A stretch of DNA of 64,000 nucleotides, taken from NCBI RefSeq assembly GCF_000478825.2, contig NZ_CP007542.1:2852001-2916000 (forward strand), read 5' to 3'. The DNA comes from Synechocystis sp. PCC 6714. GTDB taxonomy: Bacteria > Cyanobacteriota > Cyanobacteriia > Cyanobacteriales > Microcystaceae. Positions 3,694 to 8,250 of the stretch are shown one piece after another. The notes beneath the pieces were generated by a model. It was not told the origin of the DNA. It did not search any database and saw nothing but the letters and a program-made list of their open reading frames with translations. A program made the translations under genes and the position numbers. Every line of letters starts with the position of its first letter. Within the stretch, counting starts at the first letter, position 1.

Positions 3694-4087
3694 ATATGGA
3701 GCTAGCAGCTTAAGAGTTGGAAGAAATTCAGAAATTTTGGTCGCCATTCTCCTTGGGCATACCCTTGGTTCAAACCTGCGCTGAATGGTTGACCTGATCG
3801 CCCTGGGGCAAAAAATTTCCCCTTCACTGTCCATCCTTAATTGACCCATGCCCCTAGACTTAAATACTCTGGTATTAAACCGGCTATGGTGTGTAAATTT
3901 CTTGGGCAGCTTGCCCGATAACCCCTGTTCTGGGGCGATCCCAGTCATTTGACTTCTGGGCGAATGTCGCTAAGCTAAACTAGGATTAATTCCGGGAAAA
4001 AATGTTCCTGGAAAGTGGCCAATTTTTGTCATCTGAAGTTTGCAAGGTTACACATTCCATTTTCTGGCGTGAGGAAATTCTTACACC
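3694..4087. other. Intergenic region upstream of the penicillin-binding protein gene
   Basis: About 390 bases with no supported gene. Open frames here are short and lack family resemblance. It presumably holds the end of the prohibitin transcript and the promoter of the PBP gene. I see no strong hairpin-plus-T-run terminator. Confidence 0.5.
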
Positions 4088-6040
4088 GTGTCATCCACCA
4101 GCACCCTGAAACAGTCTTCCACCAAGACCCAAGCTCAAGCCCAGCCCAACTTTTTCCAGCGGGTATTACGCACCACTGGCGGCACCTTTTTGGGGATAGG
4201 GCTACTTTCTAGCGCAGTGGTGGCCGGGGGAGTAGCGGGCCTGGCCTTCAGTTTCCGCAATCTTCCCGATGTAAGGGGTTTAACTTCCTACGTTCCAGCC
4301 CAAACCAGCTATATTTACGATGCCAAAGGGCGGGAACTCCTCAGTCTCCACGGCGAAGAACACCGCAAAATAGTGCCCCTAGCGGAAATTTCCCCCCATC
4401 TTAAACGGGCTGTGCTGGCGATCGAAGATAGCAATTTTTATAAACATCAGGGCATCAATCCCAACAGCATTGGCCGGGCCCTGCTGGTAAATTTCAAGAG
4501 TGGTGGAGTTAGTGAAGGTGCCTCAACTCTAAGCATGCAGTTGGTGAAAAATATTTACCTCAGCCAAAAAAGAGTTTTTACCCGCAAGCTGGCCGAGGCC
4601 GTTTTAGCAGTCAGAGTGGAGCAGGTTTTCGACAAAGATCAGATTTTGGATATGTACCTCAACTACATTTACTGGGGTCATAACAATTACGGCGTCCAAA
4701 CCGCCGCTGAGAGCTATTTCAAGAAATCCGCCGCTGATCTCGATTTAGCCGAGTCTGCCATGTTGGCGGGCATGATCCAAGCGCCAGAAGTTTATAGCCC
4801 TTTCAACAACTTCGAGGCAGCTAAAGAGCGTCAGGAGGTGGTGCTAGACCGCATGGCTAGTATCGGTTGGATTACCTCCGCCGAAGCGGAAGCAGCCAAG
4901 CAGGAACCCCTCCAAGAAAAATTGGGCAAACCCACCGCTTGGCAAAATAGCAAATTGCCCTACATCACCGATGCCATAATTGCGGAACTAGAAACCAGAT
5001 TTGGCAAAGAAGCCTTGGCTCGGGGGGGTCTGAGGGTACAGAGTACGGTGGATTACGATACCCAAAGGCTGGCGGAGAACACAGTTAAATCTGCCCATAA
5101 AAATCTGCGGGGACGTATGGGGAGGGCGAAGGATTTACAGATTGCCTTGGTGGCCGTGGAGCCAGACACCCATTTTATTAAGGCGATGGCCGGGGGAGTG
5201 GACTACAACAAAAGTCAACTTAACCGGGTTACCATTTCCCGCCGTCAACCGGGGTCAGCCTTTAAGCCCTTTGTTTACTACAGTGCCTTTGCTAGTGGTA
5301 AGTATACCCCCGATTCATCCATTGAAGACCGACCGATTAGCTTGAGGGACGGCTCTGGTTTCTACTCCCCCAAAAACTATGGTGGTGGCTTTTCCGGTTC
5401 CATGTCCATTCGTCAGGCGGTGGCCACTTCAGCCAATATCCCCGCAGTTTTGATTGGTAGTCGGGTGGGCCTCAATAAAGTCATTGAAGATGCCAAACAG
5501 ATGGGTATTAAAACTCCCTTACAATCAGTGCTTTCCCTGCCTCTGGGGTCCGTGGATGTGACCCCATTGGATATGGCGGTAGGTTATGCCACCTTAGCCA
5601 GTAACGGTTGGTATTCCGAACCAACCACAATTTTACGGGTTACCAATGTGCGGGGAGATGTGTTGTTGGATAATACCCCCAAGCCCCAACAGGTGTTGGA
5701 TCCCTGGGCTGCTGCCAGTACGTCTTCGGTCCTGACTTCCGTTGTTCAGGGAGGGACGGGGACGTCGGCGTATCTGGGAAGGCCCACAGCAGGGAAAACT
5801 GGCACTACGGATAATGAACGCAATATTTGGTTTGTGGGCTATGTGCCCCAGTTGGCCACAGCTGTTTGGATTGGTGATGATGCTAACCGGCCGTTGGGTA
5901 AGGGAGTTTCTGGAGGGGGTTATGCCGCTCCCATTTGGCGGTCTTTTATGAGTCAGGCGGTTAAGGATATGCCGGTGGAAAATTTTCCCTCTCCTTCCCA
6001 GTTTCCCCGTCCGAAGCCGGAAAAACCACAAAAATCTTAG
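4088..6040 (+). CDS. Class A penicillin-binding protein (transglycosylase-transpeptidase)
   Basis: A 650-residue bifunctional murein synthase anchored in the plasma membrane. A single membrane segment at about residues 38-58 is followed by the GT51 glycosyltransferase domain (about 75-255), with catalytic EDSNFYKHQG near 117 and GASTLSMQLVKNIYL near 145. The transpeptidase domain carries SxxK as GSAFKPF (about 393), SxN as TSANIP (about 450) and KTG as GKTGTT (about 562), so both activities look intact. The C-terminus is Pro/Lys rich. The start is a GTG with GAGGAAA some 12 bases upstream. gatB follows about 110 bases later on the same strand, as for sll1434-sll1435 in PCC 6803 from memory. 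Confidence 0.95.
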   Translation: MSSTSTLKQSSTKTQAQAQPNFFQRVLRTTGGTFLGIGLLSSAVVAGGVAGLAFSFRNLPDVRGLTSYVPAQTSYIYDAKGRELLSLHGEEHRKIVPLAEISPHLKRAVLAIEDSNFYKHQGINPNSIGRALLVNFKSGGVSEGASTLSMQLVKNIYLSQKRVFTRKLAEAVLAVRVEQVFDKDQILDMYLNYIYWGHNNYGVQTAAESYFKKSAADLDLAESAMLAGMIQAPEVYSPFNNFEAAKERQEVVLDRMASIGWITSAEAEAAKQEPLQEKLGKPTAWQNSKLPYITDAIIAELETRFGKEALARGGLRVQSTVDYDTQRLAENTVKSAHKNLRGRMGRAKDLQIALVAVEPDTHFIKAMAGGVDYNKSQLNRVTISRRQPGSAFKPFVYYSAFASGKYTPDSSIEDRPISLRDGSGFYSPKNYGGGFSGSMSIRQAVATSANIPAVLIGSRVGLNKVIEDAKQMGIKTPLQSVLSLPLGSVDVTPLDMAVGYATLASNGWYSEPTTILRVTNVRGDVLLDNTPKPQQVLDPWAAASTSSVLTSVVQGGTGTSAYLGRPTAGKTGTTDNERNIWFVGYVPQLATAVWIGDDANRPLGKGVSGGGYAAPIWRSFMSQAVKDMPVENFPSPSQFPRPKPEKPQKS

Positions 6041-6148
6041 TTTTTTCGCTTTTGAAGGATTGAACTCTAGCTAATCCCTAGAGGAAAGGAGAGCCCGTTG
6101 GACGGCGGGAGTATGGCAAAATGGTGGGAGCCAATACGCTGGAAATTC

Positions 6149-7636
6149 ATGACTGCCACTGCTGTTAAAACCGATTACGAGGCGATTATTGGGCTGGAAA
6201 CCCATTGTCAGCTCAACACAGCCAGTAAGATTTTTTGTAATTGCTCCACGGATTTCGACAGCCCCCCCAACACGAATGTTTGCCCAGTCTGTTTGGGCTA
6301 TCCGGGGGTGTTGCCGGTGCTCAATGAAGAGGTGTTGGCGGCGGCGGTGAAGCTTGGTTTGGCCATTAATGGCCAGATTGCCCCCTACAGCAAATTTGAC
6401 CGGAAACAGTATTTTTATCCGGATTTGCCCAAGAACTACCAAATTTCCCAGTTTGATCTGCCCATTGTGGAACATGGCTCTTTGGAAATTGAGTTGGTGG
6501 ATAAAAAAACTAAAGAAATTACCCGCAAAATCATTGGCATCACCCGTTTACACATGGAAGAAGATGCAGGCAAATTAGTCCATGCGGGTAGTGATAGGTT
6601 GGCAGGGTCCACCCATTCCCTGGTGGATTTTAACCGTACCGGGGTGCCGTTGTTGGAAATTGTTTCCGAGCCGGATTTACGTACGGGGCAGGAAGCGGCG
6701 GAGTATGCCCAATCTCTGCGGCAATTGGTGCGTTACTTGGGCATTAGCGATGGGAATATGCAGGAAGGTTCTCTCCGGTGTGATGTCAATATTTCCGTGC
6801 GCCCCGTGGGACAAAAGGAGTTTGGCACCAAGGTGGAAATTAAAAATATGAACTCCTTCAGTGCTATCCAAAAGGCGATCGAGTATGAAATTGAACGCCA
6901 AATTGAGGCGATCGCCAATGGGGAAGAAATTTATCAAGAAACCCGCCTTTGGGAAGAGGGAAGTCAGCGCACCATCAGCATGCGGAAAAAGGAAGGCTCC
7001 AGCGATTACCGTTATTTCCCTGAACCAGATTTACCGCCTTTGGAAGTGTCGGAGGAACAGAAACAGGCCTGGCTACAAAGTTTACCGGAACTGCCCAGTG
7101 CTAAACGGAACCGCTACGAACAGGAATTTGGTTTATCCGCCTACGATGCCCGGGTATTGACGGAAGACCGGGAGGTGGCTCTGTATTTTGAAGAAGCTGT
7201 GGCCGCTGGGGCTGACCCGAAAGCGGTGACTAACTGGGTGACCCAGGACATCGCCGCCTATCTCAATAACAACCGTTTAACCGTCGGCGAGTTGGCTCTG
7301 AAACCAACAGCTCTAGCGGATTTGATTGCCTTGATTACCAAGGGCACCATTAGCGGAAAAATTGCCAAGGATATTCTGCCGGAGTTATTGGAAAAAGGCG
7401 GTTCTCCCCAGAAAATTATTGAGGCTCGGGGCTTAATTCAAATTTCTGATCCAGAGGAACTAACCACTATTATCAAGGCTGTTATTGCCGATCACCCCAA
7501 GGAGTTGGAAAAATTCCGCAGTGGCAAGGGCAATATGCAAGGCTTTTTTGTTGGTCAGGTGATGAAACGTAGCGGCGGCAAAGCTGATCCCAAATTAACC
7601 AACCAATTAATTGGCAAATTGTTGGCTGAGGCTTAG
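6149..7636 (+). CDS. gatB: Asp-tRNA(Asn)/Glu-tRNA(Gln) amidotransferase subunit B
   Basis: Subunit B of GatCAB, which converts mischarged Glu-tRNA(Gln) (and Asp-tRNA(Asn)) to the correct aminoacyl-tRNA; it holds the kinase-like site and binds the tRNA. Seen are IGLETHCQLNT at the N-terminus, the CNCSTDF...CPVCLGYPG zinc cysteines, the RKQYFYPDLPKNYQISQ motif, and the C-terminal YqeY/tail domain ending near GNMQGFFVGQVMKRSGG. Conserved sequence starts right at the ATG of MTATAVKTDYEAIIG (6149), so I chose that. In-frame alternatives are ATG 6113 and TTG 6098; the latter has a good AGGAAAGGAG six bases upstream, so a 17-residue extension is possible. gatA and gatC are not in the window. Confidence 0.95.
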   Translation: MTATAVKTDYEAIIGLETHCQLNTASKIFCNCSTDFDSPPNTNVCPVCLGYPGVLPVLNEEVLAAAVKLGLAINGQIAPYSKFDRKQYFYPDLPKNYQISQFDLPIVEHGSLEIELVDKKTKEITRKIIGITRLHMEEDAGKLVHAGSDRLAGSTHSLVDFNRTGVPLLEIVSEPDLRTGQEAAEYAQSLRQLVRYLGISDGNMQEGSLRCDVNISVRPVGQKEFGTKVEIKNMNSFSAIQKAIEYEIERQIEAIANGEEIYQETRLWEEGSQRTISMRKKEGSSDYRYFPEPDLPPLEVSEEQKQAWLQSLPELPSAKRNRYEQEFGLSAYDARVLTEDREVALYFEEAVAAGADPKAVTNWVTQDIAAYLNNNRLTVGELALKPTALADLIALITKGTISGKIAKDILPELLEKGGSPQKIIEARGLIQISDPEELTTIIKAVIADHPKELEKFRSGKGNMQGFFVGQVMKRSGGKADPKLTNQLIGKLLAEA

Positions 7637-7641
7637 AAACT

Positions 7642-7977
7642 GTGGCGGTCAAATGTCGGGAATTGTTCTTCGCCACTGTGCTATTTCTGGGATTTGTTTT
7701 GCCTGGGTTTGCCAACGGGAAAATTAACCCAGCCGATTGCAGTTTCAACGGCAACCTTCTGTACGGAAAGATTCAGTTGGTGAATTCCTTTCCTGACGTT
7801 AAGGTTGAGGTGGTGACGGCTTTCCCAGATTTAAAGGTACAGTTAGTCAATGCTTTTCCTGACAAGTGTGGCCAGTGGCAAGTTGTAACTTCCTTTCCAG
7901 ATACCAAAGTACAAATAGTAGAATCCTTCGGCGATGTCAAAATCAATTTTGTCGAAGCATTTCCTGGTCTTGATTAG
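7642..7977 (+). CDS. Small secreted 11-residue-repeat protein, probable 7(1) septoil knot family
   Basis: A 111-residue protein starting at a GTG 5 bases after the gatB stop, so it is probably coupled to gatB. Residues 1-26 form a signal peptide (hydrophobic core FFATVLFLGFVLPGF). From residue 43 the mature part is six tandem 11-mers: KIQLVNSFPDV, KVEVVTAFPDL, KVQLVNAFPDK, a two-residue CG insert, QWQVVTSFPDT, KVQIVESFGDV and KINFVEAFPGL. Cys33 and Cys76 could form a disulfide. The pattern is what I remember of proteins named '7(1) septoil knot' (Pfam Septknot), predicted to adopt a seven-crossing knotted beta fold. The family assignment is from memory of that pattern; function is unknown. 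Confidence 0.8.
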   Translation: MAVKCRELFFATVLFLGFVLPGFANGKINPADCSFNGNLLYGKIQLVNSFPDVKVEVVTAFPDLKVQLVNAFPDKCGQWQVVTSFPDTKVQIVESFGDVKINFVEAFPGLD

Positions 7978-8007: not shown

Positions 8008-8187
8008 CTAATCTGGCGGGTACTTCATCCCCTGCTCAAACTCCGCCCCCACTTCTTCGATTCCCCCATGGCCAAAGGCTTGAAAAAGCTTCGTCAAAAA
8101 CGTTTGGGATTCTGATTTTTCATCCCCTTTAATATAGTCCTGACAATATTGGACAAAATTTTGCAGGGTTGCCGGGGTTGCTGACAT
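8008..8187 (-). pseudogene. N-terminal stub of a DNA methyltransferase (MmeI-like) gene
   Basis: A 59-codon reading frame that begins with MSATPATLQNFVQYCQDYIK and continues through GDEKSESQ, FLTKLFQAFGH and GGIEEVGAEFEQ. This is the usual opening of large class I SAM-dependent DNA methyltransferases related to MmeI-type type IIG enzymes, where about 900 more residues should follow. Here the frame stops at MKYPPD just where the homologous helix ends, and the next bases downstream belong to the end of the neighbouring plus-strand gene. None of the SAM-binding or catalytic motifs remain. A TTG 15 codons upstream could extend the stub. The resemblance is from memory of family openings; a short stand-alone protein cannot be excluded. 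Confidence 0.6.
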
Positions 8188-8250
8188 TGTCACGCCCAAG
8201 AAGAAAGAATTATCCCTTATTTTATCTACCAACCCTAGGGTTTACAGTTT

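Follow-up and report, generated by a model that had tools for sequence, protein, structure and literature searches.

As reported, AlphaFold predicted that Q9PR55 forms a 7(1) knot, which X-ray crystallography then confirmed (PMC13352647; PMC11223836); it is the most complex knot confirmed in any protein. Brems et al. 2022 compared this protein with P73136 (112 aa), to which it is 48% identical (PMC9278004). In the AlphaFold analysis, P73136 was assigned a 5(1) knot with its core at residues 45–94, whereas Q9PR55 was assigned a 7(1) knot with its core at residues 27–83 (PMC9278004). It has also been pointed out that AlphaFold disregards topological barriers and that a predicted knot of high confidence can be an artefact (PMC10672856). 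Functional data on this knot family were not found in the literature. In this study, we analyzed a gene of Synechocystis sp. PCC 6714 whose product belongs to the Q9PR55/P73136 torus-knot family. Overall, the best explanation is that the product is an exported, stand-alone accessory protein of this family, a reading to which we give a probability of roughly 0.6.

The gene occupies positions 7642–7977 on the + strand of the window, that is, of the whole 64,000-nucleotide stretch of DNA that was analyzed, and it encodes 111 aa between a GTG start and a TAG stop. The six 11-residue repeats described earlier are genuine and well outside what chance would give. With a lag of 11, 23 self-identities are seen in the mature part, while the maximum at the best lag of any of 20,000 shuffles was 17. 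The [SA]F[PG][DG] motifs begin at residues 49, 60, 71, 84, 95, and 106 (spacing 11, 11, 13, 11, and 11), and the repeats are arranged as two triplets that flank a K-C-G linker, with the 13-residue step lying between the triplets. The first triplet covers residues 43–74 (7768–7863, + strand; AlphaFold2 model strands 42–46, 53–57, and 64–68), and the second, together with the conserved F-P-G end, covers residues 78–111 (7873–7974, + strand; model strands 78–81, 88–93, and 99–103). The linker itself, Lys75-Cys76-Gly77, lies at 7864–7872 on the + strand, with the Cys76 codon at 7867–7869, and belongs to the family motif PD-x-C-G-x-W-Q, whose Gly77 and Trp79 are kept in 60 of the 62 homologous domains. 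The proposal that each repeat opens with lysine holds overall but not in its exact form, which is [KQ]-[VIW]-x-[LVIF]-V-x-[SA]-F-[PG]-[DG]; repeat 4 opens with QWQ rather than Kxx. Additionally, the GC content of the gene is 0.44, about 2 SD below that of the long frames of the window (0.50 ± 0.03), which weakly favors a foreign origin.

The sole solved relative of the protein is Q9PR55 (PDB entries 8IWA, 8IWB, 8IWC, 8JRM, and 8W68), which was matched at E 8.7e-14 with the single sequence and at E 1.3e-17 with a 34-member profile, at ~50% identity over 64 columns. On the sequence evidence, the protein is a clear relative of the crystallized, 7(1)-knotted Q9PR55. Furthermore, the PHROG profile phrog_6462 matches residues 24–110 at E 9.4e-32 over profile positions 16–102 of 103. 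The Pfam family Septknot named in the preliminary description was not recovered, as no Pfam model of any name rose above its gathering cut-off for the protein and four relatives (E up to 1). A scan of the protein against NCBIfam gave no match, and a search of a viral structure library gave nothing below E 0.1.

The orthologue of the protein in Synechocystis PCC 6803 is probably P73136. This assignment is drawn from the gene order argD, 104 aa, 213 aa, and knot-family gene (112 aa in L067) in two sister genomes, and from accession numbering, since we take slr1022 to have the accession P73133, three before P73136. In PCC 6803, slr1022 is argD (PMC10057298). A literature search for the PCC 6803 orthologue under slr1025, slr1436, and slr1437 returned nothing useful.

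To compare the folds, two AlphaFold2 models were used, one of the full-length protein with 34 sequences and the other of the mature part with 44 sequences. Both contain the same six strands, with a domain pLDDT of ~95–97. In a Foldseek search of the PDB, 8iwa, 8iwb, and 8jrm were matched at a probability of 1.00, and nothing else fell below E 6. When superposed in register on 8iwa (Foldseek, 64 columns), both models show an rmsd of ~10 Å (10.1 Å) and a TM score of 0.26–0.37. With VIA-align, 66–68 residues were superposed on 8IWA at 2.4–2.7 Å (Z 5.5–7.2, where a Z of ~7 alone is a middling score) but only with about one repeat of the model left unmatched, as is implied by the ends of the alignment (model residues 26–110, chain residues 13–84). 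The C-terminal part is shifted by about one repeat, with model residue 110 falling on chain residue 84, as opposed to residue 100 on 85 by sequence. An ambiguous repeat register was considered as the cause of the 10 Å misfit and rejected, because the second half has 15/25 identities in register and 10/25 when shifted; the structural shift is thus unexplained by sequence.

These comparisons bear directly on the knot type. The preliminary description had proposed a 7(1) knot, the type of Q9PR55, and the level of identity, the Foldseek probability of 1.00 to 8iwa, and the feasible superposition of the whole domain at 2.4 Å all speak for it. However, the in-register rmsd is 10 Å in both models, the best superposition displaces the C-terminal part, the sixth repeat lies past the region matched by Q9PR55, and the probable orthologue P73136 has been assigned a 5(1) knot with core 45–94. 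Given the 10 Å in-register difference, kinship does not transfer the knot type, and we consider a 7(1) knot unlikely. Of the earlier proposal, the kinship to the known torus-knot family (8IWA/Q9PR55) stands, whereas the 7(1) type is doubtful in view of the in-register misfit and the published 5(1) type of P73136. Quite improbable is an open β-solenoid of six short, unknotted coils; 11-residue tandem repeats with F-P-D turns would fit such a fold and predicted knots of high confidence may be artefacts (PMC10672856), but the Foldseek search of the PDB returned no solenoid, only the knotted Q9PR55 entries, and the knot of this homologue has been confirmed by X-ray (PMC13352647; PMC11223836). We favor a torus knot, with 5(1) likelier than 7(1). 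The path of the chain in both models appears to be of the same kind as in 8IWA, yet not identical to it, and this difference agrees with the published difference between 5(1) and 7(1), although such agreement is no proof. In this arrangement, the chain would run twice through three strands, and the two passes would wind round one another into the knot.

The N-terminus of the protein resembles a signal peptide, as had been suggested. An n-region with KCR precedes hydrophobic FFATVLFLGFVLPGFA; a simple hydropathy window, in place of a trained predictor, served to score the hydrophobic stretch after KCR, FFATVLFLGFVL. Of 61 homologues, 57 have a hydrophobic stretch in the corresponding position, and the four exceptions are a copy at a contig end, a short ORF, and a phage pair in which the cysteines are missing as well. 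The predicted Sec signal peptide covers residues 1–24 or 1–26 (7642–7719, + strand), depending on the putative cleavage site, and the repeat protein is probably exported. It would then pass the Sec translocon unfolded and fold outside the membrane.

Moreover, the cysteines lie at Cys33 and Cys76, where the preliminary description had placed them, while a third, residue 5, falls within the n-region of the signal peptide. The codon of Cys33, the first half of the proposed disulfide, is at 7738–7740 on the + strand. Among 62 homologous domains, equivalents of both cysteines are present in 47 and of neither in 9, and 4 and 2 domains have a single one (Fisher p 1.7e-6, a value inflated by kinship among the rows, with the joint absences spanning several separate lineages). 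These joint absences are found in Selenomonadaceae, Paludibacteraceae, Verrucomicrobia, Planctomycetes, and one phage pair. Of the six single-cysteine domains, three have their lone cysteine at a different position and one comes from a truncated contig. Such joint presence and absence supports the suggested clamp, and the pairing of export with cysteines is expected if the disulfide forms. A Cys33–Cys76 disulfide might staple the N-terminal segment to the linker that joins the two passes.

In the family alignment, nearly all residues conserved at ≥90% either recur in each repeat (V, F, P, and D) or form part of the G, C-G-x-W, and F-P-G marks, and the conserved residues include no unique polar set that would suggest an active site. 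Since the per-repeat residues look structural and a conserved catalytic set was not seen, a stable module with a binding or protective role, located outside the membrane, is favored over an enzyme, with low confidence as to its exact role. Most likely, the protein would act as a very stable, protease-resistant binding module of the envelope or a secreted one. From the mobility of the gene and its occurrence in phage genomes, twice within tail modules and with a signal peptide, one may speculate about a role in protection or exclusion at the cell envelope.

The phage copies deserve closer description. On a Leptospira weilii plasmid with phage tail genes (L082, 5932–6246), a copy with a signal peptide lies past a baseplate hub gene and immediately ahead of baseplate J, which it overlaps by 4 bases. 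In L078, a copy lies in reverse orientation between baseplate hub genes, and in L076 a copy is found near a terminase; IMG/VR contigs are among the carriers. The signal peptide makes a virion part unlikely, and a late-expressed envelope protein would be more natural. A phage-derived moron with a product that prevents superinfection at the envelope would account for the signal-peptide-bearing copies in the Leptospira phage-type tail operon and beside the baseplate hub genes of L078, and for the existence of a PHROG family of its own. Nevertheless, most copies are chromosomal with no phage genes seen nearby, and the protein has no match among the 50,697 phage records of INPHARED; we regard this origin as rather unlikely. 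The L015 protein likewise had no match in INPHARED, and a weak match of L024 within a tape measure protein was judged to be chance.

Relatives are distributed across Cyanobacteria, Pseudomonadota, Myxococcota, Bacteroidota, Bacillota, Verrucomicrobiota, Planctomycetota, and Thermodesulfobacteriota, and also occur on Leptospira plasmids. Within the cyanobacteria the distribution is patchy, with the gene present in 15 of 292 sampled genomes. In a tree of 82 columns, in which most other forks lack resolution, the protein groups with two copies from the same genus (99/93), and this trio joins copies from beta-proteobacteria and Myxococcota (98/88), a grouping consistent with gene transfer between phyla. 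Clusters of neighboring genes recur among close relatives only, and no conserved neighborhood common across phyla was found. Collectively, the gene looks like a stand-alone mobile accessory gene.

Several of these loci show features of their own. At four cyanobacterial loci, the gene lies between hoxY and hoxH, within the operon of the bidirectional NiFe hydrogenase (L026, 3890–4252; L060, 4962–5297; L065, 4995–5357, − strand; L066, 4887–5249), and the protein of L060 has diverged well away from those of the other three. A Paludibacteraceae frame (L041, 3947–4768) contains two tandem knot-family domains (profile matches 33–106 and 35–91) and is a candidate composite knot. On one Flavobacteriales contig (L028), two knot-family genes, at 641–1081 and 3824–4243, are ~3 kb apart. 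Directly past the knot-family gene of L038, a defence-like pair of an AAA_21 ATPase and DUF4276 occupies 4265–6159; an aminotransferase link with this locus was dismissed as chance, at 29% identity inside a common enzyme family.

In the window, the upstream neighbor is gatB (6098–7636, + strand; Pfam GatB_N, 1e-122, and GatB_Yqey). The GTG start indeed lies 5 bases past gatB, as stated earlier, with the gap AAACT following the TAG at 7634–7636. The coupling to gatB that had been read from this closeness is no family trait, as the sequence similarity to four other genomes of the genus breaks off at the gatB stop or close to it. In two sister genomes (G003 and G004) the knot-family gene lies behind the argD block, two others (G001 and G002) are without it, and the window species has the argD block without the gene, which is located behind gatB instead; this gatB neighborhood is specific to the window species. 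A functional tie to GatB and tRNA amidation, for instance through translational coupling of partners, would be in keeping with the 5-base gap, within which no promoter-like or terminator-like site was found. However, an exported protein would not meet cytosolic GatB, the four other genomes have gatB without the gene there, and copies elsewhere lie behind the argD block, between hoxY and hoxH, or among phage tail genes. On this comparison of neighborhoods across the genus, the link was rejected and is extremely improbable. Given the differing loci and the joined trio, the gene moved inside the genus or entered more than once. Just downstream (8008–8232, − strand), a 74-aa ORF matches the N-terminus of a 919-aa frame elsewhere in the genome, whose DPACGSGNF and NPPF motifs suggest a restriction-modification methyltransferase; this ORF is probably a gene remnant.

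A more specific reading is possible, though we place it somewhat short of even odds: an exported, disulfide-stapled 5(1) torus-knot protein, sister of the 7(1) member, in a family whose knot type would vary among homologues, whose knotting would follow Sec export, and whose gene would move between phyla and phages. A widespread, probably exported family with a coupled cysteine pair makes it testable, in a laboratory cyanobacterium that is harmless, whether a deep torus knot forms after Sec export, whether the knot type differs among homologues, and whether a removable disulfide guards the knot. Moreover, a mobile accessory gene in several bacterial phyla and in phages offers the first biological lead on the knot family.

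Compared with Q9PR55 (UU089.1), the window protein shares homology over 58–64 residues, the KVxxVxSFPD repeats, and what appears in the models to be the same β-fold class across the whole domain. In contrast, Q9PR55 has 89 aa, a homologous stretch one repeat shorter, and a 7(1) knot, and it is without the C-G-x-W linker motif of the window protein's family. P73136 is of nearly equal length to the window protein and has a similar identity to Q9PR55 (48%), and its predicted knot is 5(1). If L067 stands for P73136, the mature parts of this protein and the window protein are ~72% identical, and their loci differ. Finally, the Leptospira member of phrog_6462 lies in a tail operon, whereas the window copy does not.
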